Virus record (IMG/VR): IMGVR_UViG_3300025102_000195
Location: 1 to 28,901 of that record
Length of the DNA: 28,901 nucleotides
DNA from: a virus
Strand: one strand, 5' to 3'
Positions 3,903 to 22,331 of the stretch are shown one piece after another (within the stretch, counting starts at the first letter, position 1; each line of letters opens with the position of its first letter). The translations under genes and the position numbers were made by a program. A model generated the notes under the pieces. The model ran no database searches. It was not told where the DNA came from and saw nothing but the letters and a program-made list of their open reading frames with translations.

Positions 3903-3904
3903 GC

Positions 3905-3932
3905 TTGACTTTGTCAAACACAGTGTTATCCT
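3905..3932 (+). promoter_or_regulatory. Probable sigma70-type early promoter with two overlapping palindromes
   Basis: The 66-base gap between the helicase and the next gene contains TTGACT (3905-3910; 5 of 6 to the -35 consensus). After a 16-base spacer comes TATCCT (3927-3932; 4 of 6 to the -10 consensus). The -35 is half of a perfect inverted repeat, TTGAC-TTT-GTCAA (3905-3917), which abuts a second one, AACAC-A-GTGTT (3917-3927), reaching the -10. The layout suggests an operator where a repressor would block RNA polymerase. The small HTH protein encoded at 5839-6078 is an obvious but unproven candidate binder. Predicted transcription would start near 3939 and read the SSB and primase-helicase genes. 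Confidence 0.55.
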
Positions 3933-3968
3933 TACTTCCCTTTTTTAAAAACTCAACGGGATATACCG

Positions 3969-4379
3969 ATGAATGAACCTACCAAACCTACTCCAGACGA
4001 GTTAGTCAAAGTCTACATAAAAATCCGAGAAGCCATACGCGAGAAGGAAGCTGCACACAAAGAAGAGATTGCCTCTCTTAAAGAGCAATTTAAAATGATG
4101 TCCGATTTACTTTTGGATCATTGCAAAGAGCATAACGCTACTTCTGTTGTAACTCAGTTTGGTACTTTTTACCGTACTGTTAGGACTAAATATTGGACTA
4201 GCGATTGGGCAGCTATGTATGACTTTATTGTAGACAAAGGCGCTGCGCATGTACTGGAGAAGCGGATTAACAGTAAAGCTATGCAAGAATTTTTAGAAGA
4301 AAACCCCGAGAGTTTACCGGCGGGTCTTAACTCCGATAAGGCATATACTATCCAAGTTAGAAAACCCAATGCTAAATAG
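3969..4379 (+). CDS. Conserved coiled-coil phage protein of the replication module
   Basis: A 136-residue hydrophilic protein. Residues 10-55 form a charged helical, probably coiled-coil region (IREAIREKEAAHKEEIASLK). A short beta region follows (SVVTQFGTFYRTVRTKYW), then a helical and loop C-terminus (AMQEFLEENPESLPAGLN...YTIQVRK). Small proteins with this order (helical hairpin, T-x-x-G-T-x-Y strand, PAGLN turn) are frequent beside SSB and recombination genes in phages, but I know no assigned function. It is the first gene after the promoter at 3905. The ATG at 3969 has a modest GGGA about 9 bases upstream. The C-terminus overlaps the next gene by 11 bases. Confidence 0.75.
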   Translation: MNEPTKPTPDELVKVYIKIREAIREKEAAHKEEIASLKEQFKMMSDLLLDHCKEHNATSVVTQFGTFYRTVRTKYWTSDWAAMYDFIVDKGAAHVLEKRINSKAMQEFLEENPESLPAGLNSDKAYTIQVRKPNAK

Positions 4380-5079
4380 TCCGTTCCCCAACGATGCAGA
4401 GTCTCCCCGAGTTACTAAGAGGAGGCTTCAGACTAATACTAACGGTACTTTTGTGCGTGTCGTTAACGGCGAGAAGAAGGGGGAACCTTTCCATAGCAGC
4501 GTTAACATTATTGTAACTTGGTCCTTACCAAGCGTGTCTCGTATTTTTTACAAAGATAAATATGACGCTAGTAAACCTGCCGCTTCACCTAAATGTTGGT
4601 CAAACATGGGAGACAAGCCAGAAAAAGAAACTCCTGACCCACAACACCCAAACTGTGCAGATTGCGAAAACAATATTAAAGGTTCTGGTGCGGGGTCTAG
4701 CAGAGCGTGCCGGTATATGCGCCGCCTTGCCGTCCTCATAGAAGGGGATACCTCTGGGGATGTTTATCAATTTAATGTACCGGCTAAGTCTTTGTTTGGG
4801 AAGGGCAAAGGCAATGTGCATCCTTTTGAAAGTTACCTTTCTTACTTACGGTCTAATGGAGAACACCCAGACAACGTTGTGACTAAAGTTTGTTACAGCC
4901 CTAACTCCAATGCCATAGAACTTTTATTTACACCTTTACGCAATGTAAGCGAGGAAGAATGGCAGTTGGTTAAGACCGCCCAAGATCTTCCTGATATAAA
5001 ACGTTACACCCAGGTTGTAGCCTACAGTGTAGCTGAACAATCTCCCTTTGCTGAAACGCAGGGGTTTACTTTTAGTTAA
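4369..5079 (+). CDS. Phage protein with four-cysteine (probable zinc) motif, upstream of SSB
   Basis: A 236-residue protein with four cysteines, Cys76, Cys96, Cys99 and Cys114, spaced as C-x19-C-x2-C-x14-C around the distinctive segment NCADCENNIKGSGAGSSRAC. This looks like a structural zinc site. It is followed by beta-rich sequence (RRLAVLIEGD...VYQFNVPAKSLFG). I recognise the arrangement from unannotated proteins of other aquatic phages, where it also lies beside replication genes, but not as a named family. Position before the SSB-like gene and beta-rich composition make DNA binding plausible; this is inference. The ATG is inside the preceding gene and no in-frame start comes before Met80, so the overlap is probably real. 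Confidence 0.75.
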   Translation: MLNSPFPNDAESPRVTKRRLQTNTNGTFVRVVNGEKKGEPFHSSVNIIVTWSLPSVSRIFYKDKYDASKPAASPKCWSNMGDKPEKETPDPQHPNCADCENNIKGSGAGSSRACRYMRRLAVLIEGDTSGDVYQFNVPAKSLFGKGKGNVHPFESYLSYLRSNGEHPDNVVTKVCYSPNSNAIELLFTPLRNVSEEEWQLVKTAQDLPDIKRYTQVVAYSVAEQSPFAETQGFTFS

Positions 5080-5097
5080 TTTTGACAGGAGAAAATA

Positions 5098-5835
5098 ATG
5101 TCCGACCCTATTTACCATGTAATTAAAAACGTATCTGCGCTTTATCCGAGAATAAATAGAACGTATAGATATGATACTACAGCAGGGAAAAGTGTCCCTT
5201 GTGACCCGTTAGCTGACCAAGCAAGTTATGCTTTACAGTTTAAGGCTAGTGATGCCCAGGCTAAAGAGTTGTATCAAGTTATGAGCAAAGCGTTTGCAGA
5301 TTCAGATAGACGCACACCTAAATGGGCAGACACGTTGGAATTGCCTTTTAACCAAGATGAAGATGGCCTTTTCATAGGTAAAGCTAGTTTGAAAGGGGCG
5401 TACAACAGCGAGCTGACTACACCCCCTAAACAGTTTGATTCACAAAACACCCCACTCCCTGTTGATTTTTTATTGACTACAGGTAGCACAGTCAATTTAA
5501 GTGTAACCCTCTACCCTTACGGACCTAGTGACAAATCCACTGGTGGGGGTGTCTCGTTACGTTTACGTGCGGTACAAGTAATTAAGTACGTACCAATGCA
5601 AGAGCGTTCTCCGTTTGAGGTAGTAGAAGATGGGTTCCAAAGTGCAGAACTAACGGGGTCTAATGAGCCTTCTGCCACTGAACTTTTCCCTACTGACGAC
5701 ATTATTCCTGCTCCTAAAAAAGAGCCAGTGGTCGCAGACCCTATTGCAGAGCCTGTTAAGAAGGAAGTTAAGAAAGAGGCAGCGCCGCCCAAAGATGAAA
5801 TTGCTGATGTCCTCTCTGCGTGGGCAGATGAGTAA
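5098..5835 (+). CDS. Probable single-stranded-DNA-binding protein (gp2.5/Enc34-like)
   Basis: A 245-residue protein with a beta-rich N-terminal core (about 1-195) and a disordered tail rich in Pro, Lys and Glu. The last residues are acidic with an aromatic (DVLSAWADE), as expected of a phage SSB whose acidic tail contacts replication proteins. The core ends in GVSLRLRAVQVIKYV, a strand pattern I associate with the Enc34/DUF2815 ssDNA-binding family, and contains a ...WADTLELPFNQDEDGLFIGKASL region. It probably coats single-stranded DNA at the fork and works with the primase-helicase encoded downstream. A good AGGAG (5087-5091) precedes the ATG. The family assignment is by pattern only. Confidence 0.65.
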   Translation: MSDPIYHVIKNVSALYPRINRTYRYDTTAGKSVPCDPLADQASYALQFKASDAQAKELYQVMSKAFADSDRRTPKWADTLELPFNQDEDGLFIGKASLKGAYNSELTTPPKQFDSQNTPLPVDFLLTTGSTVNLSVTLYPYGPSDKSTGGGVSLRLRAVQVIKYVPMQERSPFEVVEDGFQSAELTGSNEPSATELFPTDDIIPAPKKEPVVADPIAEPVKKEVKKEAAPPKDEIADVLSAWADE

Positions 5836-5838
5836 TCT

Positions 5839-6078
5839 ATGAGCTACGGGTACAGCATACGGCTCATAGAACTAAATAAGAAAGCTAACAAAAGATCTCT
5901 TGGTGTTCGCTTAGGCAAGTTGTGCATAAAGCATGATCTGCCTATAGCGCAAGTGTCTATCCATTTGGGTGTTAGTAGGCAAACTTTATACAACTGGTTT
6001 GAGGGTGTTTGTGAACCTCATCATACAGTGTCGGATAAAGTCCAAGAATATTTAGACTCCTTTAAGCCTAATACATAA
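5839..6078 (+). CDS. Small HTH DNA-binding protein
   Basis: A 79-residue protein whose centre is a helix-turn-helix: IAQVSIHLGVSRQTLYNWFEG (residues 36-56), the classical pattern of XRE/Cro or Hin-type recognition helices. The basic N-terminus (SIRLIELNKKANKRSLGVRLGKLC) may add contacts. It could be a transcriptional regulator of the early operon; two palindromes overlap the promoter at 3905-3932. It could also be a replication-origin binding accessory protein, since it sits between SSB and primase-helicase. It starts 3 bases after the SSB stop, with no strong ribosome-binding site, which suggests coupled translation. Confidence 0.8.
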   Translation: MSYGYSIRLIELNKKANKRSLGVRLGKLCIKHDLPIAQVSIHLGVSRQTLYNWFEGVCEPHHTVSDKVQEYLDSFKPNT

Positions 6079-6094
6079 AAGTATAAAAATGAAT

Positions 6095-6137
6095 CGAGGT
6101 AACTTGGGGGGAGCAGTCCCCCTAAAAAAAGTAAATG
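6095..6137 (+). promoter_or_regulatory. Hairpin between Shine-Dalgarno sequence and primase-helicase start
   Basis: The gap before the primase-helicase contains GAGGT (6096-6100 region), the only good Shine-Dalgarno match, lying about 35 bases before the ATG at 6135. Between them is a near-perfect hairpin at 6104-6125: arms TTGGGGGGA and TCCCCCTAA, loop GCAG, nine pairs including one G-U. Folding it would bring the Shine-Dalgarno to roughly 13 unpaired bases from the start. Phage T4 gene 25 uses a comparable hairpin-shortened spacing. The run of A after the stem rules out an ordinary terminator. A 17-codon ORF also spans the hairpin (ATG 6089, TGA 6140-6142) and overlaps the primase start. 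Confidence 0.5.
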
Positions 6138-9026
6138 ACTGAATTTGATCTTTTAAATACTGTTCAACCTGATGAAGGTTGGTTTTGTATTTTAGGTATC
6201 AAGAAGGTAGAAGGTAAAGATGACGTTAGGCAACAGCTTGTAGCTACTCGAAAAGAAGTTGATGCTCTTACAGCGCAATATGTAACAGAAAAAAGAAATG
6301 TGTTTTTTGCAGTGAGCAAATATGCCACTGACACCAACCGTAAAAAAGACAATGTACGCGCTGTTAAATCTTTTTGGCTCGACATTGATTGCGGGGAAGA
6401 GAAAGCCAAGCCTAACCTTACTACTGGAATACCTGATGGATACCTTGACCAACCTACCGCAGCTAGAGCCCTCAAAGCTTTTTGCACTCTAATTGGTTTA
6501 CCCCTTCCTATCGTTGTAGATTCAGGCAGGGGGCTTCACGTTTATTGGGCGTTGACTGAAGAAGTGAGCCGAGAACAATGGGAGCCTGTTGCTGAGAGGC
6601 TACGTGAACTCTGTGTAACTCATAAGTTTTACGTAGACAACGCTGTCTTTGAGGTTGCACGCATTTTGCGTATACCTGGTACTTACAATTTTAAAGGGGA
6701 ACAACCTGCGTTAGTACAACCACTGGGAGAACCCCTTGAAGCTAAACAATTACCCCTTGGGGAATTTGCTGCTTTACTTGGTGTAAAGGAGAGTCCTCTT
6801 AAAAGAGTTTCTAAATTAGGGGAGTACCTAGCTACTGCAAATAACGGCAACACTACAACTAAGTTTACGAAGATAATGCAACGTAGTGCTAAGGGCGATG
6901 GGTGTGCACAACTGTTAGATTGCTACCTTAACCAAGAAACCCTTGTTGAACCTAGGTGGTTCGATGCCTTGTCCGTAGCTAATAAATGCGATGACCGAGA
7001 AAGTGCCATTATAAAAATGTCTGAGCGACACCCTGAATATTCTTTTGCTTCGGCTGATGCAAAAGCTAAAAACTCGGAAGGGCCACATGGGTGTGAGCAA
7101 TTTGAACGGAACAACCCTGGTGGCTGTGAAGGTTGTCCTCATCAAGGGTTGATTACTGGTCCAATTAAATTAGGCAAGGGGGTTGCCGCTGCTTCTACCG
7201 ATGATTTTATAAAAGACCCACTGAGCAACGGTTCGGCGGGGCCCCCTCTTTTATTTACCCCACCAAGCTACCCGTTTCCTTTTTTCCGAGGCAAGGCCAA
7301 CGGTATATACCATAGTGATGGCGTTGAAGATTCTGATGCGGAGCCTACATTAGTTTACAAAAATGATTTGTACGTGGTTAAGCGTATGGAAGATCCAAAT
7401 TTAGGGGATGTCGTAGTGTTCAGGCTTCATTTACCTAAAGACGGGGTAAAAGAATTTAACATTCCTAACGTACACGTTTCCGAAAAGGCAGAATTGCGTA
7501 AAGCTTTAGCTTCCTATGGAGTTTTAATTTCAGGCAGTAAGAAATTTGATCTTTTACATTTGTACATAATTCTTTCAATTACAGAACGGCAAGATGAGGA
7601 GAGGGCAGAGAAGATGAGAACACAGTTTGGTTGGGCAGATGGTGACAGCAAATTTATTGTAGGAGATAAGGAATACTCTGCGGATGGGGAGTACCATAGC
7701 CCACCCGCTGCACTTACCGAAGATATAGCAAAACATATGGTGCCCAAGGGTACTTTAGAAAAGTGGAAAGAAGTTTTTAATCTCTATGGTAGGCCAGGGT
7801 TAGAGCCCCATGCGTTTGCTGCGTTGACAGCCTTTGGTTCTCCTCTGTTTAAGTTTGTAGGGCAGAGCGGAGCGATACTTAATTTAATCCACCCTAGTTC
7901 GGGTACCGGAAAATCTACAATACTGTACATGGTAAACAGTGTTATGGGCCATCCTAAAGCCCTGAGTGCTAATTTTGCTGACACTCTTAATGCTAAACTT
8001 ATGCAGCTTGGCATGATGAATAACTTATGTTTTACAGTAGATGAGATGACTAACACTCCCGCAAAAGATTTTTCTGTTCTGGCGTACAGTATGTCTCAAG
8101 GACGCGGTAAACACCGAGTAAAATCACAAACTAATGAACTGCGAGCCAACTATACTCACTGGTCGAATATGTCTTTGTGTAGTTCTAATTCTTCCTTTTA
8201 TGAAAAACTTGCATCTTATAAAACGGACGCTGATGGTGAGATAATGCGGTTGCTGGAGTACAAGATAGATTACACACCCTCTGAAATTATCCCTACTGAT
8301 ATTGCTAAAGAGTTATTCGACCATCAACTTTTAAATAATTACGGTCACGCGGGGCCGATTTATGCGCAACACCTAATAGAAAACCTTGATGACATAGTTA
8401 AAGGGCTGTTGGCAATTCAGAGGAAGATTGATACTGAGTTAAAACTTACCCAGCGAGAACGTTTTTGGTCAGCCATACTTTCTTGCAACATAGCGGGCGG
8501 CTTGATTGCTAGACGGTTAGGTCTTATAGATTGGGATATGAATCGGCTTTACGCTTGGGCTACTAGCATGTTGCATGAGCTTCGCAATGATACCACGCCT
8601 CCTACGTTCAACGCCGTGCAAGTGGTTGGAGATTTTGTTTTGCGTCACATTGATAACACTTTAGTTGTAGAGGACGCTGCTGATAAACGTACCCACATGC
8701 CGTTGCTGCCAACCAAAGACCCTAGAGGCTCATTGATTAATCGTTTTGAACCTGACACTAAAAGATTATTTATTACTGCTAAACCTTTTAAAAATGATTG
8801 CGTAGACTTACAGGTTAACTATAAAGACACTTTAGCCAAGCTTAAGCAACAAGGTATTTTCTTAGGCACGTCTGTAAAAAGAATGTCCAAAGGTATGAAA
8901 GTTGTTTCCCCAGGAGTTCACGCACTTATATTCGATGCTTCCCATCCTGATTTTAACTTCGACATTGAGCAGTTTACGGTAGCTGTTTCAGACACAGAGG
9001 AAAGTGATGGTAGTAGAGCAAGTTAA
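6135..9026 (+). CDS. Primase-helicase: AEP primase domain, Cys/His motif and DUF927-like ATPase
   Basis: A 963-residue replication protein. The N-terminal part is an archaeo-eukaryotic-type primase with all three catalytic motifs: FWLDIDCG (Asp83, Asp85), SGRGLH (His135) and YVDNAVFEVAR (Asp168), followed by RIPGTYNFK. A Cys/His knot follows at Cys320, Cys331, Cys334 and His336 (NPGGCEGCPHQG). The C-terminal half is an ATPase with Walker A SSGTGKST (Lys593) and Walker B FTVDEMTN (Asp636, Glu637), resembling DUF927/SF3-like helicases. It probably unwinds the fork and synthesises primers, as T7 gp4 does with unrelated domains. The start has no adjacent Shine-Dalgarno but a hairpin upstream. The 3' end overlaps the next gene by 20 bases. 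Confidence 0.88.
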   Translation: MTEFDLLNTVQPDEGWFCILGIKKVEGKDDVRQQLVATRKEVDALTAQYVTEKRNVFFAVSKYATDTNRKKDNVRAVKSFWLDIDCGEEKAKPNLTTGIPDGYLDQPTAARALKAFCTLIGLPLPIVVDSGRGLHVYWALTEEVSREQWEPVAERLRELCVTHKFYVDNAVFEVARILRIPGTYNFKGEQPALVQPLGEPLEAKQLPLGEFAALLGVKESPLKRVSKLGEYLATANNGNTTTKFTKIMQRSAKGDGCAQLLDCYLNQETLVEPRWFDALSVANKCDDRESAIIKMSERHPEYSFASADAKAKNSEGPHGCEQFERNNPGGCEGCPHQGLITGPIKLGKGVAAASTDDFIKDPLSNGSAGPPLLFTPPSYPFPFFRGKANGIYHSDGVEDSDAEPTLVYKNDLYVVKRMEDPNLGDVVVFRLHLPKDGVKEFNIPNVHVSEKAELRKALASYGVLISGSKKFDLLHLYIILSITERQDEERAEKMRTQFGWADGDSKFIVGDKEYSADGEYHSPPAALTEDIAKHMVPKGTLEKWKEVFNLYGRPGLEPHAFAALTAFGSPLFKFVGQSGAILNLIHPSSGTGKSTILYMVNSVMGHPKALSANFADTLNAKLMQLGMMNNLCFTVDEMTNTPAKDFSVLAYSMSQGRGKHRVKSQTNELRANYTHWSNMSLCSSNSSFYEKLASYKTDADGEIMRLLEYKIDYTPSEIIPTDIAKELFDHQLLNNYGHAGPIYAQHLIENLDDIVKGLLAIQRKIDTELKLTQRERFWSAILSCNIAGGLIARRLGLIDWDMNRLYAWATSMLHELRNDTTPPTFNAVQVVGDFVLRHIDNTLVVEDAADKRTHMPLLPTKDPRGSLINRFEPDTKRLFITAKPFKNDCVDLQVNYKDTLAKLKQQGIFLGTSVKRMSKGMKVVSPGVHALIFDASHPDFNFDIEQFTVAVSDTEESDGSRAS

Positions 9027-9201
9027 TTACGAGGTAAATTGGAAGGCATTTAAGCGTGGCTACTCTATATTTGTTCCGTGTTTAAATCCATCTTTAGCAA
9101 AACAAGAAATAATGAAAACAACTAAAAGACTTAAATTTAAAATAATTACTAAAGTAGTTATCGAAGACAACATTAGGGGTATACGTTTCTGGAGAGTTTA
9201 A
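9007..9201 (+). CDS. Small basic conserved phage protein
   Basis: A 64-residue protein starting at ATG 9007. I prefer this to the GTG at 9004 because GAGGA (8997-9001) then lies 5 bases upstream. It is basic and follows the pattern WKAFKRGYSIFVPCLNP, then a Lys-rich helix (IMKTTKRLKFKI), then VVIEDNIRGIRFWRV. This resembles small unnamed proteins that follow primase-helicase genes in other phages; the compact alpha/beta layout could bind nucleic acid, but no function is known. It overlaps the primase-helicase by 20 bases and is the last gene of the + strand operon. Its TAA (9199-9201) overlaps the stop codon of the convergent late operon. Confidence 0.7.
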   Translation: MVVEQVNYEVNWKAFKRGYSIFVPCLNPSLAKQEIMKTTKRLKFKIITKVVIEDNIRGIRFWRV

Positions 9202-9209
9202 TTAACTCT
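9193..9209. other. Convergent operon junction with inverted repeat
   Basis: The + strand TAA (9199-9201) and the - strand TAA (9198-9200) overlap. Both lie in a perfect inverted repeat, AGAGTT (9193-9198) - TAATT - AACTCT (9204-9209). The stem is only 6 AT-rich pairs without a flanking U-tract, so a strong intrinsic terminator is not evident. It may at most slow polymerase from both sides. Each operon must otherwise read into the antisense of the other. Confidence 0.4.
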
Positions 9210-12200
9210 ACTGCGCCTAACTAAATCAGAAGCGAACGGAGCTAACTGCGTTTGAGGTACAACTAAGCCTTGATCCCCTTCGGCCCTAGTAGTTGCTCGT
9301 CCTGTTATAGATTGGTTTACACTGTTCCCAGATATGGGGTAGAACGCATTGCGGTAGTTGTATTCGTCTACCGCATCTAGAGCTTCCTCAATGTTAGCTC
9401 GTGTACGAGCAGTTGAATTCTCCATGTCTTTGGCGAAAGCTAAATTAACTTCGTTGAGTACTTTAGTTCGTTCCCGTTGTATTTCAATTGTCATTCGTTT
9501 GGCTAGAAAATTAGCTTTTTGTATTTCAGCCTCTGTAGTAGGTTGGAAATTTAAGGCTTGCCCAAGCAACTTACCCGTGGTGTACCACTCTGCATCTAGG
9601 ATAGGCGCACGTTGCCCGGATGTTACACTGCCTTCTTGAGATACTCGAAAAGCTTTCATGGGTCCACGGAAAAATGCAGGGGCAAACTTTTCTAAGCCCC
9701 TATCAAAATTGCCCTCGTTAACATCCTGTATACCATCCGCTATTTGTGCTCCCATAGCCCCTAAAGGACCACCAAAAGTATCAAATAAAAATTGTGTAAA
9801 AGCTCCTTTCATATCATCTGAGGGCACTCTATCTTGGAACCACAAATGATCTAGCGTTACGGAGGAGCCGACATTCCAATCTGTTAGTGCAGATAAGGGG
9901 CCCATTTCTACCCCTCTTGCTACCCCTTGTGCAGTTTCTGGTGACAACCCAAGCACACTAGCCAAGTCACTATTAGGACCAAACATGGTGGGTATCCACC
10001 ATTCTCTAAACCACAAGTCTAAATTCCTTTTGCCTAGCGGATTACCTTCATCGTTCTCGTCATACCATATATCAGCATCTTCATCGTCCATGTCGGGCCT
10101 CAGAGCTTCCCGTATCCCTTCGGCCATCCCCATCATGGCTGTATACCCAGGCACACCTACTAAACCCGCAAACAAAGTAGTCATTCCTATGGTGCCAAAA
10201 AGTTTTGTGGCAGCAGCTTTCTTTTCTTCCTTGGGAATAGTGGGCCATATTGTGCCAAAGAAATTACGAACTAAAAACGAAGTCATTTGTAACGGGTACG
10301 TTAAAAACTGAGTAGCTATTTTACCTACAGGGTGTTTCATTACTGGGGGCTTTTCATACAACGTATAGTTAAATAAAGTTTCGTAAGTAATTTCTACAGC
10401 TTTTTCTGTGGCAGCACTGAGAGCAGCTTCTGGACTCAGGTTAGGGTTGGTTTGTGCGAGTCTGTCTAACTCTAGTTCCAATGCAGACATAAACATTATC
10501 TCACGGGACAACCGTTCACTATGGTGGAAAAGAAACCCCATCATGTCTACAAAACCACGCCAACTTTTTTTACCTAGGTTGTCGAACTGATCACTGTCTG
10601 ATTTTTTTCGAGCACTTATATCAGCACTGTAAGTTAAATTAAGAATGCCTAAATCTCTGGCTCTTTCAAATCCAGCTTTTAATTGATCTTTGTTAGGGTG
10701 GTCTTCGATATATTTGGAACTAACGATAGATACGTCATCATCAAACATACCTTTACCAACCAATGGGCTGTCTTTACCAAAGCGATTTATAACAGCTAAG
10801 TAACCCCCTAGAACTCGCATTACATTTTTCTTACCGTACCCTCTAGCTACTAACGTGGGTATGCCCACTATGGGTACTTGGGTAAATTGGATAAGAGCAG
10901 ACTTGGGGGAGGTCAACATGTACACAAACGCCACTTGGTTACCCAGACCGGCGAGTTTACCAAAGTCAAAACCTTCAGGTATAACAGGGTTGATTTCTGC
11001 TCTAGCCCTAGAAGACAATTCATTAAAAAGAGCTTCATACTTTAGCTTACCTTCACTAGGAGTCATGCTATCCACACTGGCTTTTGCCCCTTCGATGGCA
11101 ACTTCAAGTGGAGCAATAAATTCAAACCGTGCTAGTTGGTTAGCAGAACTAGACTGCGAACTTATAAAGTTACGTAGGGCATCTTCACTGTATCCGGTAT
11201 AACCTTGCCTGTTTAAAAATTTGCGGCGTAATGCACCTGGCGGCAATGTCCTTAGATACAACTGATATATGCTATCTTTTAATTGGGCTCGGTCTTGGGG
11301 AGAGTTGCCCACAGTGTCAAGCAAGTCAAATAATTCTTTTAACTCTTCAGTGCTGCCCATCAATTCTTTTTGACCGTCTTGCAATTTGTTACCAATGTTT
11401 ATTTCTCCAGAACCTATCAACTCATCTTTGTCTCTATCCCCTACAATTTGATTTAGAAGCTCATCTCTTTCGGCAGCAGTTTCCCGCATATAAAATTCCA
11501 TTTCTGGACCCTTACCCACCCTAATCCAAAAATTTCCATAACGCATAAGAGGGAAATATACTTTTAATTGTTTAGCATTTTGGTATTGCAAAGTAATCAT
11601 GTTGATGAGTTTGTCTTGGAGTGCTAGGTCTTGCGTTGTGTTGTTGATATGCTCAATTAATAATTCTTGGTATTTAAGAAAAGTTTCTTTATAGGCATCT
11701 CTAGCCATAACATATATTTCATGGGCTTTCCCATTGTCTACTTGACCCACTTCGTCCCACAACCTGTACATGGCTTCAATATCAGCAATTCGTTGTGTTA
11801 TTTCATCATCTATTTGTGCTCGTTGACTATCTGATAAGTCGGGGTTTTCGGCTGCTTCATACAACCCTCCTACCCGTGTATCAGGATTTTCTACACTGGG
11901 CTTCCCATTCAATACTTCATCATTAGCAATGGCTTCTTCAACAGTGGCATGTTCGGCCATATCTAAATTTAATATAGTAGACCTATGCATTATATCCGCG
12001 AGAGTTTTGGCTTGCGCAGGAAAATTCTTAGTAAACTCTACCCAAGGTTGAATTCGTTTGTGAATTAAACCCATTGCAATGTTACGTTGTTTGTTAAACT
12101 CTTGAATAACTTTGTTTATTCTTACTGCGTCAAATTTACCATTCACCCACCGAGTAATATCAGTTGTAGTAAGCACTTTGGATATGGCTACAACTGCCGA

Positions 12201-15086
12201 ATCACTCATACGACCAAGCGCTTCCCGTAAACTTTTGATAGCCTGTTCACCATCCCTAGTTTCCATCATCAACTTACCCATATTGGACAAGGTGCCTCGC
12301 GCCCCACCAATATTATCGCGAATAGCTTCTACTATTTTTTTGACACGGAACTCTTTCTTGTCACTAATTTTTTTGGCAGCTAATACTTGTCCAGCATTGG
12401 CAGCTGTTTCGGGTACAAACAAAGCATCACTTGCCTTAATGAGTTCCATAAAGGCTGCTTTTTGGGAAGAGGGTATGTTAAACAGTTGGCGCAACAGCTC
12501 TACGAATTCACCAAACAATGTGGTCTTACCATCCCTACTGGGCTCCCCGTTAAGGAACTGTTGCATGGCTTCGTTAGTTCTTGCGTAAGCTATGAATTCA
12601 TTTAAGTCATTGAATGCACCGGCATTAAACAAGTTTCTGTCAGTGTCTGTTAAGGTGCCCGCTTTATCCTTAGCTTTATACCGTGCTTCAGCTTTTTCCA
12701 TTAGACTTTTTAGTTTGTCCAAGGATTCGACTTCTTTGTTAGTCAAGCCCTCATTAGTTGGGTCTTGGTTTTCATAGATGTTTACTTTAGCTACTGTCCC
12801 TTTGTGGGTAGCTTCATGGAGTATTACTTCTTCGTTCAACCCTTTTTCAGGATGTAAGTACATAGTGTCTGAGCTGTTCTCATATACCCCTTGAGTGTCA
12901 GCTTCATTGTATAAAGCACGGGTAGCAGGGTTGGCTATTTGGGTTTCAGGATCAGTGACAACCACAAAATTAGTATTGCCCATGAGAGGAGCTAATCGGT
13001 TTGCCAAATTCCTAAGTAATTTGTTGGATGTGTTTTTCTTGATGTACTCTACGGCTTGCCGTGCATTACGAATATTTGCAAAAGCTGAATTAGGTTCGGC
13101 AGCTGTATCCACACCAGAGCTTTTCTTTGCATCAGGGACAATTGTCGGGGTTTCAGCAGTTTGAGTAGTTAGTGTATTCCCTTCACTATCAAACAAAGTT
13201 TTAACAGGGATGGGTCCGAAAGGAGCCCTATCTTTGGCTAAAGTAGGTTCTCCAGGTGCAGTTACTTCTTTAATATTGGAGGGGGATACATCTGTGTTGC
13301 TTATAACTGCACTGGAGTATGTCATCTGCATTTCAGTGTTCATATCCTTTTGAACATTTTCAATGTCACTTTCAAATGAAACAACTTTTAAATTTTCTAT
13401 GGGAACACCTAGTTCGTAGTTCATCCTACTTGCCCATCTATCTGCATCTCCTTTATCTGAAAAAGCATAAACTTTTTTAGGAGTTTCTTTTCCACGGGTA
13501 GTAAATTGTCCTTTAGTGCTAGTCCTTGCACGTAACCCGTTTTGTTGTATTGTGGGAACGTTGTCCTCAGTGGTCACATGATAAAAAGTTTCTTTGGGTG
13601 TACCTGTTTCTATTTGTCGTGCGGCGAATGTTCCTTCCCCTTCTTCCTCACTCAGCCTAGCTGCCGTTGCCCTAGCTGCTGTGCTACCACTTTCGGCATC
13701 TAACGCATCAAAATCAGGGAACTCATATGCTTCATCTTCTTCCTTGGCTGTTACAGTCGCGTCTGCTTCTTCTCCAGCGGGTGGAGGCTCCGTTATTATC
13801 TCCCCAGTTTCTGGGTCTATGTTGCCCGCAACAACATCCGCGTCCCTACTAGCTGTTTCATCAGGTGCTCCGGGTTCTCCCGTGTCTTGAGGATCATCAG
13901 CAGGAGGGGGAGGGGTAGGGGTAGGATCATCAGGAGGAGTATCCAGCCCTTCAGTGTCTTCTGTTTGTTGTGCCGCTTGCAAAGCTCCCAGTGGACCGGC
14001 TGCTAATGCACCGGCTAACCCTTCTAAAGTTCCCGCACCGACTACACCTCGCATCAAAGGCACTTCGGCCTCTACAGCTTCTTCGCGTCCCAAAGCTATG
14101 TTTCTGGCAAGTTGTTCTTGTGCACCTTGTAAGGCTTCAGGCCCTGCTTCTTTTGCTGCGGCTACAGCGCCACTCGCTAACACGCCTCGCTTTGCTACAT
14201 TTTCTGCGACTTCTTTAACCAATGTCTTAGCCAACAAAGGTTCCAAACCTGCCCTGGAAGCGTAAGCTCCTAGTAGTCCACCTAGAGCAATCTGGTCTAA
14301 GTTTTCTCCACCATAAGCTTGAGCTTCTTGAGCGACTCGTTCAGCATCTTCTTCTGAGATTCCCTGCTTTATTAACTCTTCCTTAACAGCATCAAAAATA
14401 CTTCCCTTAACAATACCGGCTCCCATTATGGTACCCATGCCTAACGCAGCTGCACCTGCTGCTACAGGGACTGCGACTCCTAGTGCAGGGGCTGCTAAAC
14501 CAGCCAATAAAGCAGCGGCAGCTACGGGGATAACTGTACCTACCGCGTTAGCCATAAAGTCTATAGGTGCAGTAGCAATGCCTTGCAAAGCCGCCACTAC
14601 TTGGGCACCTACGCCTTTGTCTTCGGCTTCTTGTTGTAGTCTTGCAACTTCAGCACTATCACCTTTAGATTGCGCCGATAGTAAACTATCTAATAAGTCC
14701 TCAATGCCCCGTAAGTTTTCTGATACTTGGTTATCTGCACCAAAAGCTTCAGTTATAGCACGCACGCCGTAAGTAGCACCTTTACCAACCTGCAAAGGTA
14801 CGTCAGCAACAGGACGTAAGAAAGACTGATCTTCTATTTCAGGGGGTGGTTCAGGGGGTGGTTCAGGGGGTGGTTCAACTACAGGTTCGAGGACTGCCTG
14901 GGGAACCACTTCTTCGATAGGAGGAGGGACAACAGGTTCCCTTGGTTCAAACGGCGGTGGGGTAAACCCTTCACGCTTATAAGTCTCAGCAAAGATGGTA
15001 GCCATGTCTTCAGGCGTGGGGGGCTTTGGCCCCCTAACTCGCAGCTCACGTCCCGTAGCATCATCTTGAATGGTATATTCAGGCAT
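9198..15086 (-). CDS. Large polyvalent virion protein: ART-like, zinc metallopeptidase and LPD38-like regions
   Basis: A 1962-residue multidomain protein, probably carried in the virion and delivered into the cell. N-terminus: short conserved start, then a Pro/Glu-rich linker (48-83). Residues 180-225 are Ala/Gly-rich and hydrophobic, compatible with membrane passage, followed by an acidic Pro-rich linker (375-465). Residues 499-608 look like an ADP-ribosyltransferase/KptA-type fold (FYHVTTEDNVPTI...GLRA...VYAFSDKGDADRWA). Residues 757-761 are HEATH, a zincin HExxH motif, with a likely third ligand Glu830 in DLNEFIAYA. The last 600 residues match the style of large polyvalent-protein-associated domain 38: KSALIQFTQVP near 1400, and FLTYPLQMTSFLVRNFFG plus a hydrophobic segment near 1580-1640. 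The start ATG directly follows the upstream TAA. It is the last gene of the late operon. Domain names are from pattern recognition. Confidence 0.75.
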   Translation of the reverse strand: MPEYTIQDDATGRELRVRGPKPPTPEDMATIFAETYKREGFTPPPFEPREPVVPPPIEEVVPQAVLEPVVEPPPEPPPEPPPEIEDQSFLRPVADVPLQVGKGATYGVRAITEAFGADNQVSENLRGIEDLLDSLLSAQSKGDSAEVARLQQEAEDKGVGAQVVAALQGIATAPIDFMANAVGTVIPVAAAALLAGLAAPALGVAVPVAAGAAALGMGTIMGAGIVKGSIFDAVKEELIKQGISEEDAERVAQEAQAYGGENLDQIALGGLLGAYASRAGLEPLLAKTLVKEVAENVAKRGVLASGAVAAAKEAGPEALQGAQEQLARNIALGREEAVEAEVPLMRGVVGAGTLEGLAGALAAGPLGALQAAQQTEDTEGLDTPPDDPTPTPPPPADDPQDTGEPGAPDETASRDADVVAGNIDPETGEIITEPPPAGEEADATVTAKEEDEAYEFPDFDALDAESGSTAARATAARLSEEEGEGTFAARQIETGTPKETFYHVTTEDNVPTIQQNGLRARTSTKGQFTTRGKETPKKVYAFSDKGDADRWASRMNYELGVPIENLKVVSFESDIENVQKDMNTEMQMTYSSAVISNTDVSPSNIKEVTAPGEPTLAKDRAPFGPIPVKTLFDSEGNTLTTQTAETPTIVPDAKKSSGVDTAAEPNSAFANIRNARQAVEYIKKNTSNKLLRNLANRLAPLMGNTNFVVVTDPETQIANPATRALYNEADTQGVYENSSDTMYLHPEKGLNEEVILHEATHKGTVAKVNIYENQDPTNEGLTNKEVESLDKLKSLMEKAEARYKAKDKAGTLTDTDRNLFNAGAFNDLNEFIAYARTNEAMQQFLNGEPSRDGKTTLFGEFVELLRQLFNIPSSQKAAFMELIKASDALFVPETAANAGQVLAAKKISDKKEFRVKKIVEAIRDNIGGARGTLSNMGKLMMETRDGEQAIKSLREALGRMSDSAVVAISKVLTTTDITRWVNGKFDAVRINKVIQEFNKQRNIAMGLIHKRIQPWVEFTKNFPAQAKTLADIMHRSTILNLDMAEHATVEEAIANDEVLNGKPSVENPDTRVGGLYEAAENPDLSDSQRAQIDDEITQRIADIEAMYRLWDEVGQVDNGKAHEIYVMARDAYKETFLKYQELLIEHINNTTQDLALQDKLINMITLQYQNAKQLKVYFPLMRYGNFWIRVGKGPEMEFYMRETAAERDELLNQIVGDRDKDELIGSGEINIGNKLQDGQKELMGSTEELKELFDLLDTVGNSPQDRAQLKDSIYQLYLRTLPPGALRRKFLNRQGYTGYSEDALRNFISSQSSSANQLARFEFIAPLEVAIEGAKASVDSMTPSEGKLKYEALFNELSSRARAEINPVIPEGFDFGKLAGLGNQVAFVYMLTSPKSALIQFTQVPIVGIPTLVARGYGKKNVMRVLGGYLAVINRFGKDSPLVGKGMFDDDVSIVSSKYIEDHPNKDQLKAGFERARDLGILNLTYSADISARKKSDSDQFDNLGKKSWRGFVDMMGFLFHHSERLSREIMFMSALELELDRLAQTNPNLSPEAALSAATEKAVEITYETLFNYTLYEKPPVMKHPVGKIATQFLTYPLQMTSFLVRNFFGTIWPTIPKEEKKAAATKLFGTIGMTTLFAGLVGVPGYTAMMGMAEGIREALRPDMDDEDADIWYDENDEGNPLGKRNLDLWFREWWIPTMFGPNSDLASVLGLSPETAQGVARGVEMGPLSALTDWNVGSSVTLDHLWFQDRVPSDDMKGAFTQFLFDTFGGPLGAMGAQIADGIQDVNEGNFDRGLEKFAPAFFRGPMKAFRVSQEGSVTSGQRAPILDAEWYTTGKLLGQALNFQPTTEAEIQKANFLAKRMTIEIQRERTKVLNEVNLAFAKDMENSTARTRANIEEALDAVDEYNYRNAFYPISGNSVNQSITGRATTRAEGDQGLVVPQTQLAPFASDLVRRSRVN

Positions 15087-18000
15087 TTAGAGTCCCGGCA
15101 ACTCGTATGCACGTTCGTATACGTCCTGCGCGGTGTCTAATAGTACCTCAAAAGCAGTATTCGCTTGGTCTGACTCGGCTCCATATTTCCTCACGGCCTC
15201 GGCATGTGCTCTAACAAGCGGGTTTGTTGGCTGGTCCATTAGTTGTCCTACCATGTCAGAATAACCCTCAATTCTATTTGTTTGCCCTGCGTAAATGTTA
15301 TTAGCTCGGAGATAAACTTGGGTTGCTTCAACCCCCAATTGTGCGGGAGTTTTTTCTCCTCCCCTATTAGCTGCTATGTAGCGGTCAATAAAACGACTTT
15401 GGTCAGTTTGATTTTGAGCATCAATAGCATCTGCTCTGTTTTGTGCTTCGATAAGTGCTAACGCTTCTATTTGCTCTAATTGGTCACGATCCTGAGCCTG
15501 TTGCATAATACCCGCTGCTTCATACCCTTTACTTCTACCAGCACCCCCACCTAACGTCTGAAGCAAATCAAAGAAAGCTTCGGTGCCGCTTTGTGGTTGT
15601 GTAAGTTGGTTATACTGTTCTTGGATAGACATAGGACGTTGCGCAATCGAATTATTGTCACCAGTGCCAATAACTTCATACCTACCTGACCCAGTATTTA
15701 CACCATCTCTGCCCTCTTCTGCGGCAATAATTTCTTCTTGGGTTCTAAATTTAGCATCCGAACCCGGAGCGCCTTTAGCCCCACTTTCCATTTGTTGCTC
15801 AATAATTTCGGCTATTACATTATTACCGTTCTGATCTTCCTCTACTATCTCTTCAGTATTGTTAAAAGTGTTCGGATCATAAAACCTAAAACCATCAGAA
15901 CCACTAGCAGTTAACTCTTCTACTAAATCAACAGGTTCTTCAACGTTTATCTTTTTAGCTAAAGTTTGCCGCATAGATGAAGTAAGCGCAGGGTTATCGG
16001 AAGCCAAAGCCCTGCGAATGTTTGTTGTGTTAAAAAATGGACTATCCACTGGGATAGTTCCACCACTCATAGCATCAGCGTAACGTTGGGCGATAGCAAA
16101 ACCTTCTTCATTCCAATCTCTTGTTTGTTGTCCTCTCCTACCCATTAAGTCTTCATCAGCTGTAGAGGCTTGGTATACTTCACGATTTCTTCCTAAAGGG
16201 TTAGGAGAAACCCTTGAGAGTTGTTCATACCCATCAATAGTTTTTTGTGTTTGTACAGGAGGTTCTTCAGGCTCAAGTTGGTATCTAGGTCTAATTTTAG
16301 ATGTCCCATAAGGGTTAGCACTTATAGGTTCTCCAGTGTTTTCTTCTGACTCAGTAGGCCCCATTATGCTTTCAAGTAACCCCAAAGCTGCATCTGTATC
16401 TGAGGATTCCATACCACTATTAATTAGGTCAAAGAACGCATCCCTTCTACCTTGCGCTGCATCAAGCAAATTCATTTCTGCTTCAGCATCTGCTTGCTGT
16501 TCTGCATCGTAGCTTTCAGCTAGTTCGGGCAACAACATGCGCAACTCTCTGTTTGGTGCGCCAAGCGGAACCCCTTCCTCGCGTAAAGCTCTTCTCCTCA
16601 TAGCCGCTTCTTCTCCAGGTGATACCTTTTCTCCACCACTATCAAGTAAGTCAAAGAACGCATCTCTTCTATCTTGTGCTGCATCAAGTAAATTCATTTC
16701 TGCTTCGGCATCTGCTTCTTGGTTTAAAGTTCTTCTAGCAATAAGGTCGTTAGCTGAATCGGCATTAGCATTACTCATTATTTTACGCACATGAGGTCTA
16801 GTTGTGTCAGGTTGAGGAAGTTCTTCATAATCTCTACCACCCGCTACAAAGTTATCAGCATTTTGGTAACCTGCGTTGTACGCAATGAGGGCTGCTTCAA
16901 CATCTCCATTGTATCGGTCAAGCAAAGCTTGAAGGTATTCTCTAGAAAAATTTCTACTAGCTTCGGGGTCAAAAAGATCGCCTGTAAAAGGAGCTACACC
17001 CAATCCCGGTTGTGCCGCAGTTGAAGGTCTAATTTGGTACGCACCTAACTCGCCCATATTACCAACCGCATTGGGATCACCACCGCTTTCCGTCATCATC
17101 AAAGCGTTAAGAAGGTTATCCATATCTATATCTTCTGCTTTTACTAAACCACGGTTAGCAAAACCTACTATCCCCCCAGAAGCCATTTCTTCTACGTATT
17201 TAGTATGGTAATCCCCACCCATAAATTCAAAAGTTTCACGCCCTTTGCTACGCGCTTCTCTAAAAGCCCTATTAAATCTTTCTCTAATAGTTGGATCATT
17301 TTCAGCAGCAGCTTTAAGTTCAGGTAATAAAATTTCGTTGCTAAACCATCGCGCATTTTGCACTTGATCGGGGAGATACCGCCTTACCTTTTGTATAACT
17401 TCTGGAAACTGTTTCATAAAAGGCCCTTCTTCATCTGAATATAAAGGGTACCTTTTCAACTTGCTTAAAAAACTTTCTTCATTTTCAATATTGGTTAAAC
17501 CTTCTTGCGCTTGTGCTGCATCAAGCAAGCCCGTTACTGGCGGCAACAACGGTGTGCCTAGCATCCTAGGGTCTATAGAAGTAAGCCCACCTTTATCAAA
17601 ATTTAAAACTTCTTCACTGATGTCTAGGGAACCACTTTGGGTTTGGCGTATATCTTCTACCATGTCACTAAACCGTGACATAAAGTTAGCTTTTTCCATC
17701 TCAAACTGTTCTCTAGCTTGAGGCGATACGTTCCCTTCAATTTCATTAAAACGTTTTTGCCCCTCAAGAAACTCCATTACTCTTTCACTGCCGTACTTTT
17801 GCATAAGCATAGGTATAGGTTGGTTACTACCTACTGGCATAGCAGCATCTGGCCCATACTTTTCTACAGCAGCTCGTTTCTTTGCCCTGTTCATAAAGTC
17901 TTCGTTTAGCTCACCACCAAAATCATACATTGGCCCTACACCTAGGTTTTTAAGTAATGGGCCATACATAAATTCCTGCCGACTAAAATTGTTGCCTTCA

Positions 18001-18359
18001 ACGTTACCGCCATCCGCAAAAGAAACAATCCCACCACCGGCCATCATCATGTTAGGGGCGGGCACACCGGCTACTCCTGGCTGCATAGGCATGGGTTGAG
18101 GAGGCATCTGTTGAGCCATTTGCTGGGCTCCAGGCATTAATCTTTCAGCCAAACCTTGTTCTAACTGCCCCACTACTTGTGGAGGCTGTGGTTGCTCCAT
18201 TGCCATGTCCCGCTCACGAGCAGCCGCATTAACAATATTAGTTGCTTCTTGTAACGCTAAAGCATACTTTAACTGTGGGTTAACAGACTGCATCTGAGTA
18301 AGTGCGGGTACACCTAATTCAGTTAGTTCTTCTATTTCTTGACCAATACCATACGCCAT
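15087..18359 (-). CDS. Internal virion protein with lytic transglycosylase (SLT) domain
   Basis: A 1090-residue protein. Residues 413-500 are a soluble lytic transglycosylase domain: ALMMTESGGDPNAVG with catalytic Glu424, ELGAYQIRP (440s), LDRYNGDVEAALIAYNAGY (480-498). It should cut peptidoglycan during DNA entry, like T7 gp16. The rest is low-complexity helical and Gln/Met/Pro-rich sequence. Glycine motifs GGGIVSFADGG (108-118), KGGLTSID (256-263) and GGIVGFANRG (395-404) recur. A 30-residue unit ADAEAEMNLLDAAQ-x-RRDAFFDL is duplicated at about 550-574 and 623-648. A segment GSDGFRFYDPNTFNN (about 818-832) also occurs in the 672-residue protein upstream in the operon. It lies directly before the 1962-residue protein, consistent with a joint ejection complex. 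Confidence 0.8.
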   Translation of the reverse strand: MAYGIGQEIEELTELGVPALTQMQSVNPQLKYALALQEATNIVNAAARERDMAMEQPQPPQVVGQLEQGLAERLMPGAQQMAQQMPPQPMPMQPGVAGVPAPNMMMAGGGIVSFADGGNVEGNNFSRQEFMYGPLLKNLGVGPMYDFGGELNEDFMNRAKKRAAVEKYGPDAAMPVGSNQPIPMLMQKYGSERVMEFLEGQKRFNEIEGNVSPQAREQFEMEKANFMSRFSDMVEDIRQTQSGSLDISEEVLNFDKGGLTSIDPRMLGTPLLPPVTGLLDAAQAQEGLTNIENEESFLSKLKRYPLYSDEEGPFMKQFPEVIQKVRRYLPDQVQNARWFSNEILLPELKAAAENDPTIRERFNRAFREARSKGRETFEFMGGDYHTKYVEEMASGGIVGFANRGLVKAEDIDMDNLLNALMMTESGGDPNAVGNMGELGAYQIRPSTAAQPGLGVAPFTGDLFDPEASRNFSREYLQALLDRYNGDVEAALIAYNAGYQNADNFVAGGRDYEELPQPDTTRPHVRKIMSNANADSANDLIARRTLNQEADAEAEMNLLDAAQDRRDAFFDLLDSGGEKVSPGEEAAMRRRALREEGVPLGAPNRELRMLLPELAESYDAEQQADAEAEMNLLDAAQGRRDAFFDLINSGMESSDTDAALGLLESIMGPTESEENTGEPISANPYGTSKIRPRYQLEPEEPPVQTQKTIDGYEQLSRVSPNPLGRNREVYQASTADEDLMGRRGQQTRDWNEEGFAIAQRYADAMSGGTIPVDSPFFNTTNIRRALASDNPALTSSMRQTLAKKINVEEPVDLVEELTASGSDGFRFYDPNTFNNTEEIVEEDQNGNNVIAEIIEQQMESGAKGAPGSDAKFRTQEEIIAAEEGRDGVNTGSGRYEVIGTGDNNSIAQRPMSIQEQYNQLTQPQSGTEAFFDLLQTLGGGAGRSKGYEAAGIMQQAQDRDQLEQIEALALIEAQNRADAIDAQNQTDQSRFIDRYIAANRGGEKTPAQLGVEATQVYLRANNIYAGQTNRIEGYSDMVGQLMDQPTNPLVRAHAEAVRKYGAESDQANTAFEVLLDTAQDVYERAYELPGL
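15862..15910 (-). repeat. Dispersed 49-bp FRFYDP repeat, copy in transglycosylase gene
   Basis: This 49-base stretch matches 22198-22246 with only three mismatches by eye. On the - strand it encodes SGSDGFRFYDPNTFN in the same frame as its partners, although the surrounding proteins differ. Confidence 0.9.
16423..16722 (-). repeat. Duplicated 80-bp coding segment in transglycosylase gene
   Basis: Copies at about 16423-16502 and 16644-16722 encode ADAEAEMNLLDAAQ(G/D)RRDAFFDL. DNA identity is high, with mostly silent changes, which points to a fairly recent duplication. A short third echo (LLDAAQAQEG) is encoded near 17510-17530. Confidence 0.85.
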
Positions 18360-18375: not shown

Positions 18376-19251
18376 TTAACTACAGTTACCGAATATATTG
18401 CGTGTTTGACCTTGAGGACAAGGGAATGCGGCATTTAAAAATTTGTTAATACCTTCGCCCGCAGTTCCTACTGCACCTATAGTCCCTAATATTTCAGAAA
18501 GCCCACTAGGTTCAATATAATCTCTTGTTTGTTTTTGTACAGGCAACCCATCAAGCAAAGCTTTTTGGTAGTTAACTTGCTTATACGGAAAATCTCTTTC
18601 TTCTTTAAACTGCGCATAATCAGCTTCAACACCTTCACTTTCAATACCACGTTGCTTATCACCAAAGTTAAGCATTTGATCTAGTGCTAACAAACCATAC
18701 CTATTATTGTCTTGTTGAGCGGTGCGCAACCTATCTTGTTCAGTGTTGAATTGATCTTGGGCTTTATCAAATGCCGTGTTATATCCTGTAGCAGTGATGC
18801 CTGAAAGGTTATTTAACAAACTACGTTGCGTTTCTGCATCCATAATTGCTTGCCGTGAGCCACCGTATGCACCAGCTCTACTCAACCTAGAAGCATTTTG
18901 TCGTTGTTGTATTTGGGCTTGTCTTTGCGCTTCAGCTAATTGGGGCTCCAACGAAGCTTGAAGGTACGGGTTCATATAGTCAGTAGCAGTAGTACCGGAG
19001 GTAAACGATGTGGGAGTGAAAGCTCCCATCTGTGCAGTAGGCACGGTCAACCCAGCAATACCTTGAAAAGCTTTAGTTTGTAAATCAGATTGCTCCGCTG
19101 TAAGCGGGCCTGTATAAGCCTGGTACGGTTGATTCGCTAAAGCTTTACCTTTTGCAAGTATGTCCGTTACATAAGGTGCAGCCCACGAAGACAAACTCTC
19201 TTCAGTACCTGCTACTTGACCAACTGGATCTTTGGCTACCAAATCTACCAT
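18376..19251 (-). CDS. Probable internal virion/head-tail protein (Gln/Ala-rich helical)
   Basis: A 291-residue protein dominated by a long helical middle (about 95-215) rich in Gln, Ala and Arg (AEAQRQAQIQQRQNASRLSR, then GAYGGSRQAIMDAE). A tail region SGLSEILGTIGAVGTAGEGI may touch membrane, and the C-terminus has a small Cys pair (CPQGQTRNIFGNC). The pattern PYQAYTGPLTAEQ near residue 42 and the GGSRQ segment are typical of unnamed structural proteins in aquatic podoviruses, where they sit beside the transglycosylase gene. By position and composition it resembles T7 gp14/gp15-class internal proteins, but homology cannot be shown here. The gene lies 16 bases upstream of the 1090-residue gene with AGAGG before that start. 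Confidence 0.6.
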   Translation of the reverse strand: MVDLVAKDPVGQVAGTEESLSSWAAPYVTDILAKGKALANQPYQAYTGPLTAEQSDLQTKAFQGIAGLTVPTAQMGAFTPTSFTSGTTATDYMNPYLQASLEPQLAEAQRQAQIQQRQNASRLSRAGAYGGSRQAIMDAETQRSLLNNLSGITATGYNTAFDKAQDQFNTEQDRLRTAQQDNNRYGLLALDQMLNFGDKQRGIESEGVEADYAQFKEERDFPYKQVNYQKALLDGLPVQKQTRDYIEPSGLSEILGTIGAVGTAGEGINKFLNAAFPCPQGQTRNIFGNCS

Positions 19252-19261
19252 TAGTGTTTCC

Positions 19262-20308
19262 TCACGCTAAAAAATTGTTAGGGTTTATTTCTTTACCCTG
19301 TTTAGTAGTACCAGTACGAGCTTTACGTATTCGGTCCATCATCCCATGCAACTGAGTAGCTCCTGCCTCTGAGTTCCCATTGCCCAAGTGACTTACTACA
19401 TCAGCTGGTATTACAAATTCACCATCACTTAATCTAGCTTCTTGGGTACCATTAATAGAAGCGGGTATTTGGTCTGCCATGCCATCAGTTGCGCCACCTA
19501 AGTAGTAACCGTTACCACCTAATGAAGCCAAACCACCTCTTTGAAAAGTAGGAGTCTGGGCAGCAAAAAACTCTTGGATTTCTTCTATAGGACGACCAAA
19601 ATAATTAGATATTTGTTCACTTGTAACTGCCCCATTTTTAAACATTTCAATCACAGCTGAAATTTCTGTGGGCGAGTAGTCGTTATCCCTAGGTATAGAG
19701 CTTAACGGATTACCATAAGCTCGGTTTTTTGCTGAAGCCAGAGCACTCTTAAGCGTATTTTGTATATTCAAATTGGGAGTAGCATTAAGTTTTTGTTCCG
19801 CAGGGGTTTGATAATAAGGCCCCATACTGTTTTGTATGTTAGCTAGTGGCGTGGTAGTAGCTTTTGAAAGCCTGTAAGGTGAAATAGCATTTTCGTTCAT
19901 ATACCCTATTGTTTGATCTATTTGTTGTCGATCTGTGGTATTACTACCGAGTATGCCACTTATATCTTTAGCTAAAGCAGTGTCCGTAACTCGTTGCAAA
20001 CTTGACAAACCTTGTCGAGCTGGGTTGGCCGCATTAGCCGCCGCTAGACTAGCTTGTTGGTTAGTCGCACGAGTGTTAGCGCCTTGTAGCAATGCATCCA
20101 TTGCAGTGTTGTAACGCGCTTCATACGCAGCTTGCCCAGGCCCATCATACTTTTCAGTAGTTTCTGTTAGCCTATCTAATTGTGGGCCTCGCACAAACTC
20201 CATATCGGTAAAGTATCGTTGCCCACCACTACCTGGTCTGCGATCAACATCGTAAGTATTAGGTACAATTGATCGAACACCCCTATAATCAGGTATGGTA
20301 ATTGCCAT
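19262..20308 (-). CDS. Structural/assembly phage protein with DGEFVIPADVV motif
   Basis: A 348-residue protein. The first 200 residues are helical and Ala/Asn/Gln-rich. Residues 210-250 (YSPTEISAVIEMFKNG...EQISNYFGRPIEEIQEFFAA) form a compact helical unit. Residues 257-280 carry a glycine-rich motif (RGGLASLGGNGYYLGG) like those in the 1090-residue protein. Residues 289-308 contain QEARLSDGEFVIPADVVSHL, a signature widely seen in phage virion-associated proteins without assigned function. It is probably a virion component in the neck or interior. A clear AGAGGA lies 5-6 bases before the ATG, and the gene starts 1 base after the preceding stop, so it is coupled to the late operon. Confidence 0.6.
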   Translation of the reverse strand: MAITIPDYRGVRSIVPNTYDVDRRPGSGGQRYFTDMEFVRGPQLDRLTETTEKYDGPGQAAYEARYNTAMDALLQGANTRATNQQASLAAANAANPARQGLSSLQRVTDTALAKDISGILGSNTTDRQQIDQTIGYMNENAISPYRLSKATTTPLANIQNSMGPYYQTPAEQKLNATPNLNIQNTLKSALASAKNRAYGNPLSSIPRDNDYSPTEISAVIEMFKNGAVTSEQISNYFGRPIEEIQEFFAAQTPTFQRGGLASLGGNGYYLGGATDGMADQIPASINGTQEARLSDGEFVIPADVVSHLGNGNSEAGATQLHGMMDRIRKARTGTTKQGKEINPNNFLA

Positions 20309-20309
20309 A

Positions 20310-22331
<2,022 letters not shown>

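Follow-up and report, generated by a model that had tools for sequence, protein, structure and literature searches.

Gp50 of phage N4 is arranged as a lipid-binding N-terminal domain, a linker of ~100 residues, an RNA polymerase (RNAP), a C1 domain (2124-2375) reported to contain an HExxH motif, and a helical C2 domain, with membrane helices predicted at 224-278 (PMC12633501). Polyvalent proteins of phages have been described as combining zincin, ADP-ribosyltransferase (ART) and LPD parts, and auto-processing by the zincin was proposed for them by Iyer et al. 2017 (PMC5512222). The analysis concerns a 1962-residue protein, P0001, encoded by the IMG/VR virus record IMGVR_UViG_3300025102_000195, whose full 28,901 bases are referred to as the window. 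The open reading frame (ORF), domains, synteny, cassette exchange and zinc-ligand invariance were computed. P0001 is fairly likely to be the largest internal virion (ejection) protein of a lytic short-tailed phage, equipped with an exchangeable cargo slot. It would be a compact counterpart of N4 gp50 and of T7-type internal core proteins, with its transglycosylase encoded by the adjacent gene. New relative to the published work are the nucleotide-level exchange of a cassette at one fixed position and the agreement of that position with the order of domains in N4 gp50.

The exchange is seen by comparing the window with a near-identical relative, L002. The two are 99.66% identical over positions 1201-13145 and 97.6% identical over 13641-15089, and nothing is alignable in the intervening 13146-13640. 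Within the gene, runs of exact match stop at nucleotide 1446 and restart at 1945. The pieces exchanged between the two measure 498 and 486 nucleotides, and both are in frame. The segment exchanged in L002 is the ART-like part of P0001, a cassette that can be replaced while the rest of the protein stays constant. A more diverged relative, L013, carries the same module at 63-68% identity and is 65-67% identical elsewhere; the module is conserved there while its flanks diverge. A third version of the slot occurs in L003, and neither the L002 nor the L003 version has a match in the phage collection. Chimeric assembly of the window is unlikely, as the independent contigs L004 and L005 reproduce its version at 99.9% and L013 has the same module. 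The preliminary description of this DNA had an ART-like part among the enzymatic activities of the protein and missed its exchange. Because the ART-like part is exchangeable, being replaced in so close a relative, ART chemistry is no constant trait of P0001.

The domain that follows the slot is a zincin-type metallopeptidase domain (a gluzincin, with HExxH and a downstream Glu), a solid assignment from sequence for which proteolysis is predicted. Residues 656-935 match the N4-type vRNAP PHROG (E 3.1e-17, model positions 2024-2250), and the match to the vRNAP of Roseovarius phage RPP1 has an E-value of 6.3e-19. A five-sequence zincin profile matched two structures in the PDB, 9sfn (chain G), an "internal virion protein" (E 1.4e-15), and 8vb2 (chain A, E 4.6e-6). 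The latter is the PhiM1 ejectosome, in which gp48 is a tetrameric ejection protein (PMC11440229). A profile built without N4 gp50 recognises that protein with E 6.3e-7 when 8 proteins are searched; the sole HExxH of gp50, at 2228, lies within C1. AlphaFold2 models the zincin region with a predicted local distance difference test score (pLDDT) of about 65-84 as helices, three strands, an HExxH helix and a Glu helix, an order that matches the description of polyvalent zincins (PMC5512222), although a PDB fold search with the whole 1200-aa model found no usable match. A viral fold search was headed by LPD proteins and by internal core proteins of phages.

The HEATH zinc-protease motif with Glu830 as likely third ligand, proposed in the preliminary description, was borne out. 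Of 73 relatives retrieved by way of the C-terminus, the zincin domain is present in 60. The two His, the Glu of the motif and the third Glu occur in 60/60, an invariance that is suggestive rather than a probability because the relatives share ancestry and were selected by a profile containing the motif. As the third Glu is invariant both in this set and in an 8-row alignment, H757-E758-H761 is more than a chance HExxH. A scan of a genome collection for the zincin found one weak locus, in a Zoogloea metagenome-assembled genome. The 5'-complete relatives L107, L111, L112 and L134 keep the C-terminus and are without the zincin, and two HExxH motifs per chain, one of them distant from the C-terminal part, occur in L070, L074, L081, L092, L115-L118, L124, L125 and L026.

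It is plausible, if somewhat doubtful, that the zincin cuts the chain to free the cargo. A rather unlikely alternative is that the zincin is a non-cutting structural domain of the ejectosome, with a zinc site that serves folding or contacts with DNA or partners; the remainder of the cargo model would hold. Such a role is consistent with the packaging of N4 gp50 uncut, with the packing of its C1 domain against C2 and the RNAP domains, and with the presence of the same domain in the ejectosome structures 9sfn and 8vb2. However, the equivalent of the general base Glu758, which is no zinc ligand, is among the residues invariant in 60/60, and a purely structural site would tolerate change there.

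The cargo in P0001 itself is ART-like. Residues 499-608 contain H503 in the ART N-terminal His motif (yHxT..nv..I..nGL) and the second-strand Tyr, Y540. An HHalign comparison with 16 DarT sequences scored 35.2 (P 7.9e-5; best of 60 shuffles 20.5) over only 26 columns, and the best PDB match of the module was DarT1 (E 0.06, two collinear pieces). Matches to PTS_2-RNA were weak (E 0.07; E 0.0013 against the window alone), as was a plasmid match (E 4e-3). DarT1 has E152 as its catalytic Glu (PMC11543638). E152 aligns with Ser592, and 16/16 DarT have Glu beside the Ser592/Ala593 column, where the alignment is weak. The catalytic acidic residue (Glu, or Asp of the polyvalent HYD2 clade) is therefore not at the aligned position, which is Ser/Ala in L013 too. 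No match to Pfam ART-PolyVal (PF18760) was listed for the module up to E 10, a scan of the genome collection for the module found none, and an AlphaFold2 model from 2 sequences was unusable (pLDDT 39). Single-sequence PDB matches (discoidin, BamH, ARF exchange factor) were weak and incoherent, disagreed with the profile search and were taken to be chance.

Given weak ART matches in separate libraries and Ser/Ala at the position of the catalytic Glu, "ART-like, catalysis doubtful" is a fair label for the module, and NAD chemistry of this cargo appears unlikely. The ART-like region of the preliminary description keeps its His, its Tyr and its resemblance to DarT; a working NAD-dependent enzyme is not upheld, the acidic residue being missing at the aligned position and ART-PolyVal unmatched. 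A stand-alone 262-aa protein of Aeromonas phage phiA8-29 (L034:2983-3771), annotated as hypothetical, shares the FYHxT...GL...ET.KKxY signature of the module.

These properties bear on a second alternative, in which P0001 would be an effector with two permanent activities, an ART that ADP-ribosylates host targets in the manner of T4 Alt and a protease directed at host defences. The resemblance to the ART superfamily, the frequency of ARTs in polyvalent proteins (PMC5512222), the retention of the module in L013 and the conserved zinc ligands agree with this explanation. It is nevertheless quite unlikely: the catalytic Glu position holds Ser/Ala, ART-PolyVal is unmatched, a near-identical relative lacks the module, and nothing suggests a host target for the protease.

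The slot is not peculiar to the window and L002. In most lineages with close pairs, identity is low in zones located after the N-terminus and before the zincin. Identities before, in and after this middle zone are 0.96/0.64/0.97 for L082-L089, 0.83/0.61/0.94 for L101-L102, 0.86/0.54/0.89 for L075-L078 and 0.66/0.22/0.61 for L120-L126, and the middle zone differs in L028-L030 too. In L106, ART-PolyVal (E 3.6e-18) stands directly ahead of the HExxH part, and L105, 92% identical after it, is without ART-PolyVal. In L022, ddrB-ParB (E 3.9e-16) precedes the zincin, and in RPP1 vRNAP an ART-PolyVal, a first metallopeptidase and the RNAP all precede the C1 zincin. The zone at residues 483-647 of P0001 is thus likely to be a cargo position.

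A third explanation, which takes the zone as a disordered spacer that recombines and drifts freely and the ART-like and other matches as incidental, would account for the fact that most slot contents match no known family and for the Pro/acid-rich flanks. It is improbable, as folded domains are recognised in the slot (in L106 and L022), the module of the window persists in L013 beside diverging flanks, and the replacement is sharp, in frame and of similar length.

The C-terminal chassis was described earlier as LPD38-like, which has to be revised. The LPD38 profile (PF18857) has no match in P0001 and occurs in the relative L022; P0001 instead matches LPD39 (33.8 bits, cut-off 27), followed by the PLxRFG region and, over residues 1008-1948, by the DarB-like PHROG 10089 (E 7.9e-56). 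The closest named phages for this C-terminal half encode podovirus DarB-like giants (phages Atu_ph08, PBC5, PEp14 and Parlo), which share the C-terminal ~950 residues at about 24% identity; JC1 gp69 is counted among the giants by annotation. A DarB-like protein is abundant in virions of phage JC1, with 51 unique peptides (PMC9144972). This chassis is all that would favour a DarB-like anti-restriction protein guarding incoming DNA, which is very improbable and was rejected as the main function, because P0001 is without the methyltransferase and helicase domains of the giants and the two DarB-like proteins checked are without HExxH.

Taken together, the zincin relatives, which are internal core or ejection proteins (9sfn and 8vb2, solved in virions or ejectosomes, and N4 vRNAP), and the position where a structural operon ends, beside transglycosylase and ejection genes, indicate that P0001 is very probably an ejection protein. 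Packaging, ejection, topology, proteolysis and cargo action are inferred. By this homology and synteny P0001 is very probably packaged and ejected: it would be stored in the head and exit together with the DNA. Its hydrophobic N-terminus would then join a trans-envelope channel at the inner membrane, an insertion for and against which the case is evenly balanced, and the parts behind the Pro-rich linker would reach the cytoplasm. The slot between linker and zincin would hold an exchangeable effector, which is ART-like here, ART-PolyVal, ddrB-ParB or an unknown domain in relatives, and RNA polymerase in N4. The neighbouring HExxH...E zincin may cleave the chain at the slot, freeing the cargo, and the long helical C-terminus would serve packaging and the channel. 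Of the protein first portrayed as polyvalent and, if ejected with the DNA, as delivering at least two enzymatic activities, the polyvalent nature, the very probable ejection and the real zincin remain; a working NAD-dependent ART is not supported as first stated.

Several points weigh against this model. The phage is known from sequence alone. N4 gp50 as published gives no hint of processing, and cutting by the zincin may therefore not take place. The slot version of L002 was not found in any second viral contig and is known from one contig. Membrane-compatible Ala/Gly segments had been noted, of which there is a single strongly hydrophobic stretch (residues 175-226), composed of Ala/Val/Leu. 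At the same threshold such a stretch was absent from the N-termini of the seven relatives tested and was seen in P0001 only, so that the membrane-insertion step is weak. A PDB fold search with the whole 1200-aa model gave nothing usable, only chance matches of long helices. The N-terminal part (200 residues) is the more variable one in L070-L092 and L103-L105, and the C-terminal zone of L028-L030 also scores low; the middle-zone rule is therefore not absolute and the slot is not the sole variable part. Finally, the PHROG link between P0001 and JC1 gp69 is by family name, with no direct match.

It is tempting, though on present evidence doubtful, to extend the model to the ejection proteins of many short-tailed phages, which would share a chassis of N-terminal domain, linker, cargo slot, zincin and helical tail. 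The slot would be a recombination hotspot for effector domains, the zincin would release these into the host cytoplasm as the DNA enters, and N4 vRNAP would be one such cargo. If so, the chassis would be a natural modular protein-injection system, and odd domain fusions would become a testable rule with a payload site, constant parts and invariant residues (HExxH and Glu830) expected to govern payload fate. The payloads of uncultivated phages could be read from the slot, N4 vRNAP would fit into a broader picture, and the HExxH domain of gp50, whose role has long been open, could be tested directly in a laboratory coliphage. Near-isogenic natural pairs (window/L002 and L105/L106) reveal which part phages replace while the remainder is constrained.

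The features of the locus are listed in Table 1. The ORF of P0001 is real, as first described, and lies on the minus strand; the plus strand of 9198-15086 has many stops and no open frame. Along the chain, the hydrophobic stretch, the Pro/acid-rich linker, the slot and the zincin are followed by the helical remainder. The ATG of P0001 comes immediately after the TAA of the upstream transglycosylase gene, and P0001 is the last gene of a minus-strand block that is convergent with plus-strand replication genes (a helicase and a primase/helicase with DUF927). The transglycosylase protein is presumed to be a partner ejection protein and the PHROG 4287 protein a third.

Table 1. Features of P0001 and of the adjacent genes, with positions in the window
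Feature	Residues	Window position	Strand	Evidence or remark
Whole gene of P0001, putative ejection/polyvalent protein	1962 in all	9198..15086	-	one uninterrupted ORF
Strongly hydrophobic Ala/Val/Leu stretch, candidate membrane-inserting segment	175-226	14409..14564	-	Kyte-Doolittle
Pro/Asp/Glu-rich low-complexity linker ahead of cargo slot	376-480	13647..13961	-	
Probable cargo slot	483-647	13146..13640	-	unrelated sequence in near-identical relative L002
ART-like module within slot	499-608	13263..13592	-	H503, Y540 kept; Ser592/Ala593 at DarT Glu position
Zincin-type metallopeptidase domain	667-879	12450..13088	-	
HEATH (HExxH) motif	757-761	12804..12818	-	
Glu830, candidate third zinc ligand	830	12597..12599	-	invariant among relatives
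LPD39 domain	952-1151	11634..12233	-	E 3.6e-8
PLxRFG (NCBIfam tail-700) helical region, inside DarB-like C-terminus	1175-1666	10089..11564	-	E 6.9e-87
Adjacent upstream gene, SLT lytic transglycosylase domain	1090 in all	15087..18359	-	SLT E 5.1e-19
SLT domain of the 1090-residue protein	414-502	16854-17120	-	
PHROG 4287 "DNA ejection protein"	291 in all	18376..19251	-	E 3e-7

Other features were noted in passing. The first 40 residues of P0001 (14967-15086; MPEYTIQD..G....V.GP.PPTPEDM) have a recognisable counterpart in the distant relatives L006 and L024, and this N-terminus is perhaps a packaging signal. The transglycosylase gene is mosaic as well when compared with L002 (5250-7997), with two stretches missing and a divergent version of the SLT domain. 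Its protein repeats a GGGIVSFADGG / GGIVGFA motif at residues 106 and 395, and a similar Gly-rich motif occurs in the protein of 19262-20308. A minus-strand gene beside the tail genes (20310-22328, 672 residues) contains a long Thr-Gly repeat array at 20543-20820, made of 12/18-bp units in 23 copies, which aligns only piecewise between relatives. A Class 3 lipase (26245-26991, minus strand, E 3e-19) lies near a phage lysozyme (25102-25536) and possibly has a lysis or envelope function. The minus-strand gene at 28017-28901, incomplete at the contig end, encodes a tail-fibre-like protein of repeated GNSxYGTAxVGTVSGTSISFGT units. PADLOC returned nothing convincing.

Like the polyvalent proteins described by Iyer et al. 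2017 (PMC5512222), P0001 unites a zincin, an ART-like part and LPD parts in a single large phage protein. It differs from them in that exchange of the effector cassette is seen in near-identical genomes and in that its ART-like part is without the acidic residue of the clade. T7-type internal core/ejection proteins (the T7 gp16 class, 9sfn, PhiM1 gp48 in 8vb2 and a protein of Limnohabitans phage YIMV22061) share zincin homology and the transglycosylase neighbourhood with P0001. The YIMV22061 protein joins SLT, zincin and C-terminus in one chain (PHROG 342, E 2.6e-181), whereas P0001 has no SLT, is adjacent to a separate SLT gene, and adds a cargo slot and a Pro-rich linker. P0001 is much shorter than N4 gp50 and RPP1 vRNAP (Schitoviridae), has no RNAP match and carries a small swappable cargo. 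Only the C1 zincin is common to them, and homology of the LPD39/PLxRFG C-terminus to N4 C2 was not shown. Nevertheless, the N4 and RPP1 proteins resemble P0001 in having a homologous HExxH...E zincin, the order N-terminal domain, linker, cargo, zincin and helical C-terminus, and a place at the end of the structural operon. In RPP1 vRNAP an ART likewise stands ahead of the zincin, and in N4 the genes of gp50, gp51 and gp52 likewise end a minus-strand block convergent with replication genes.

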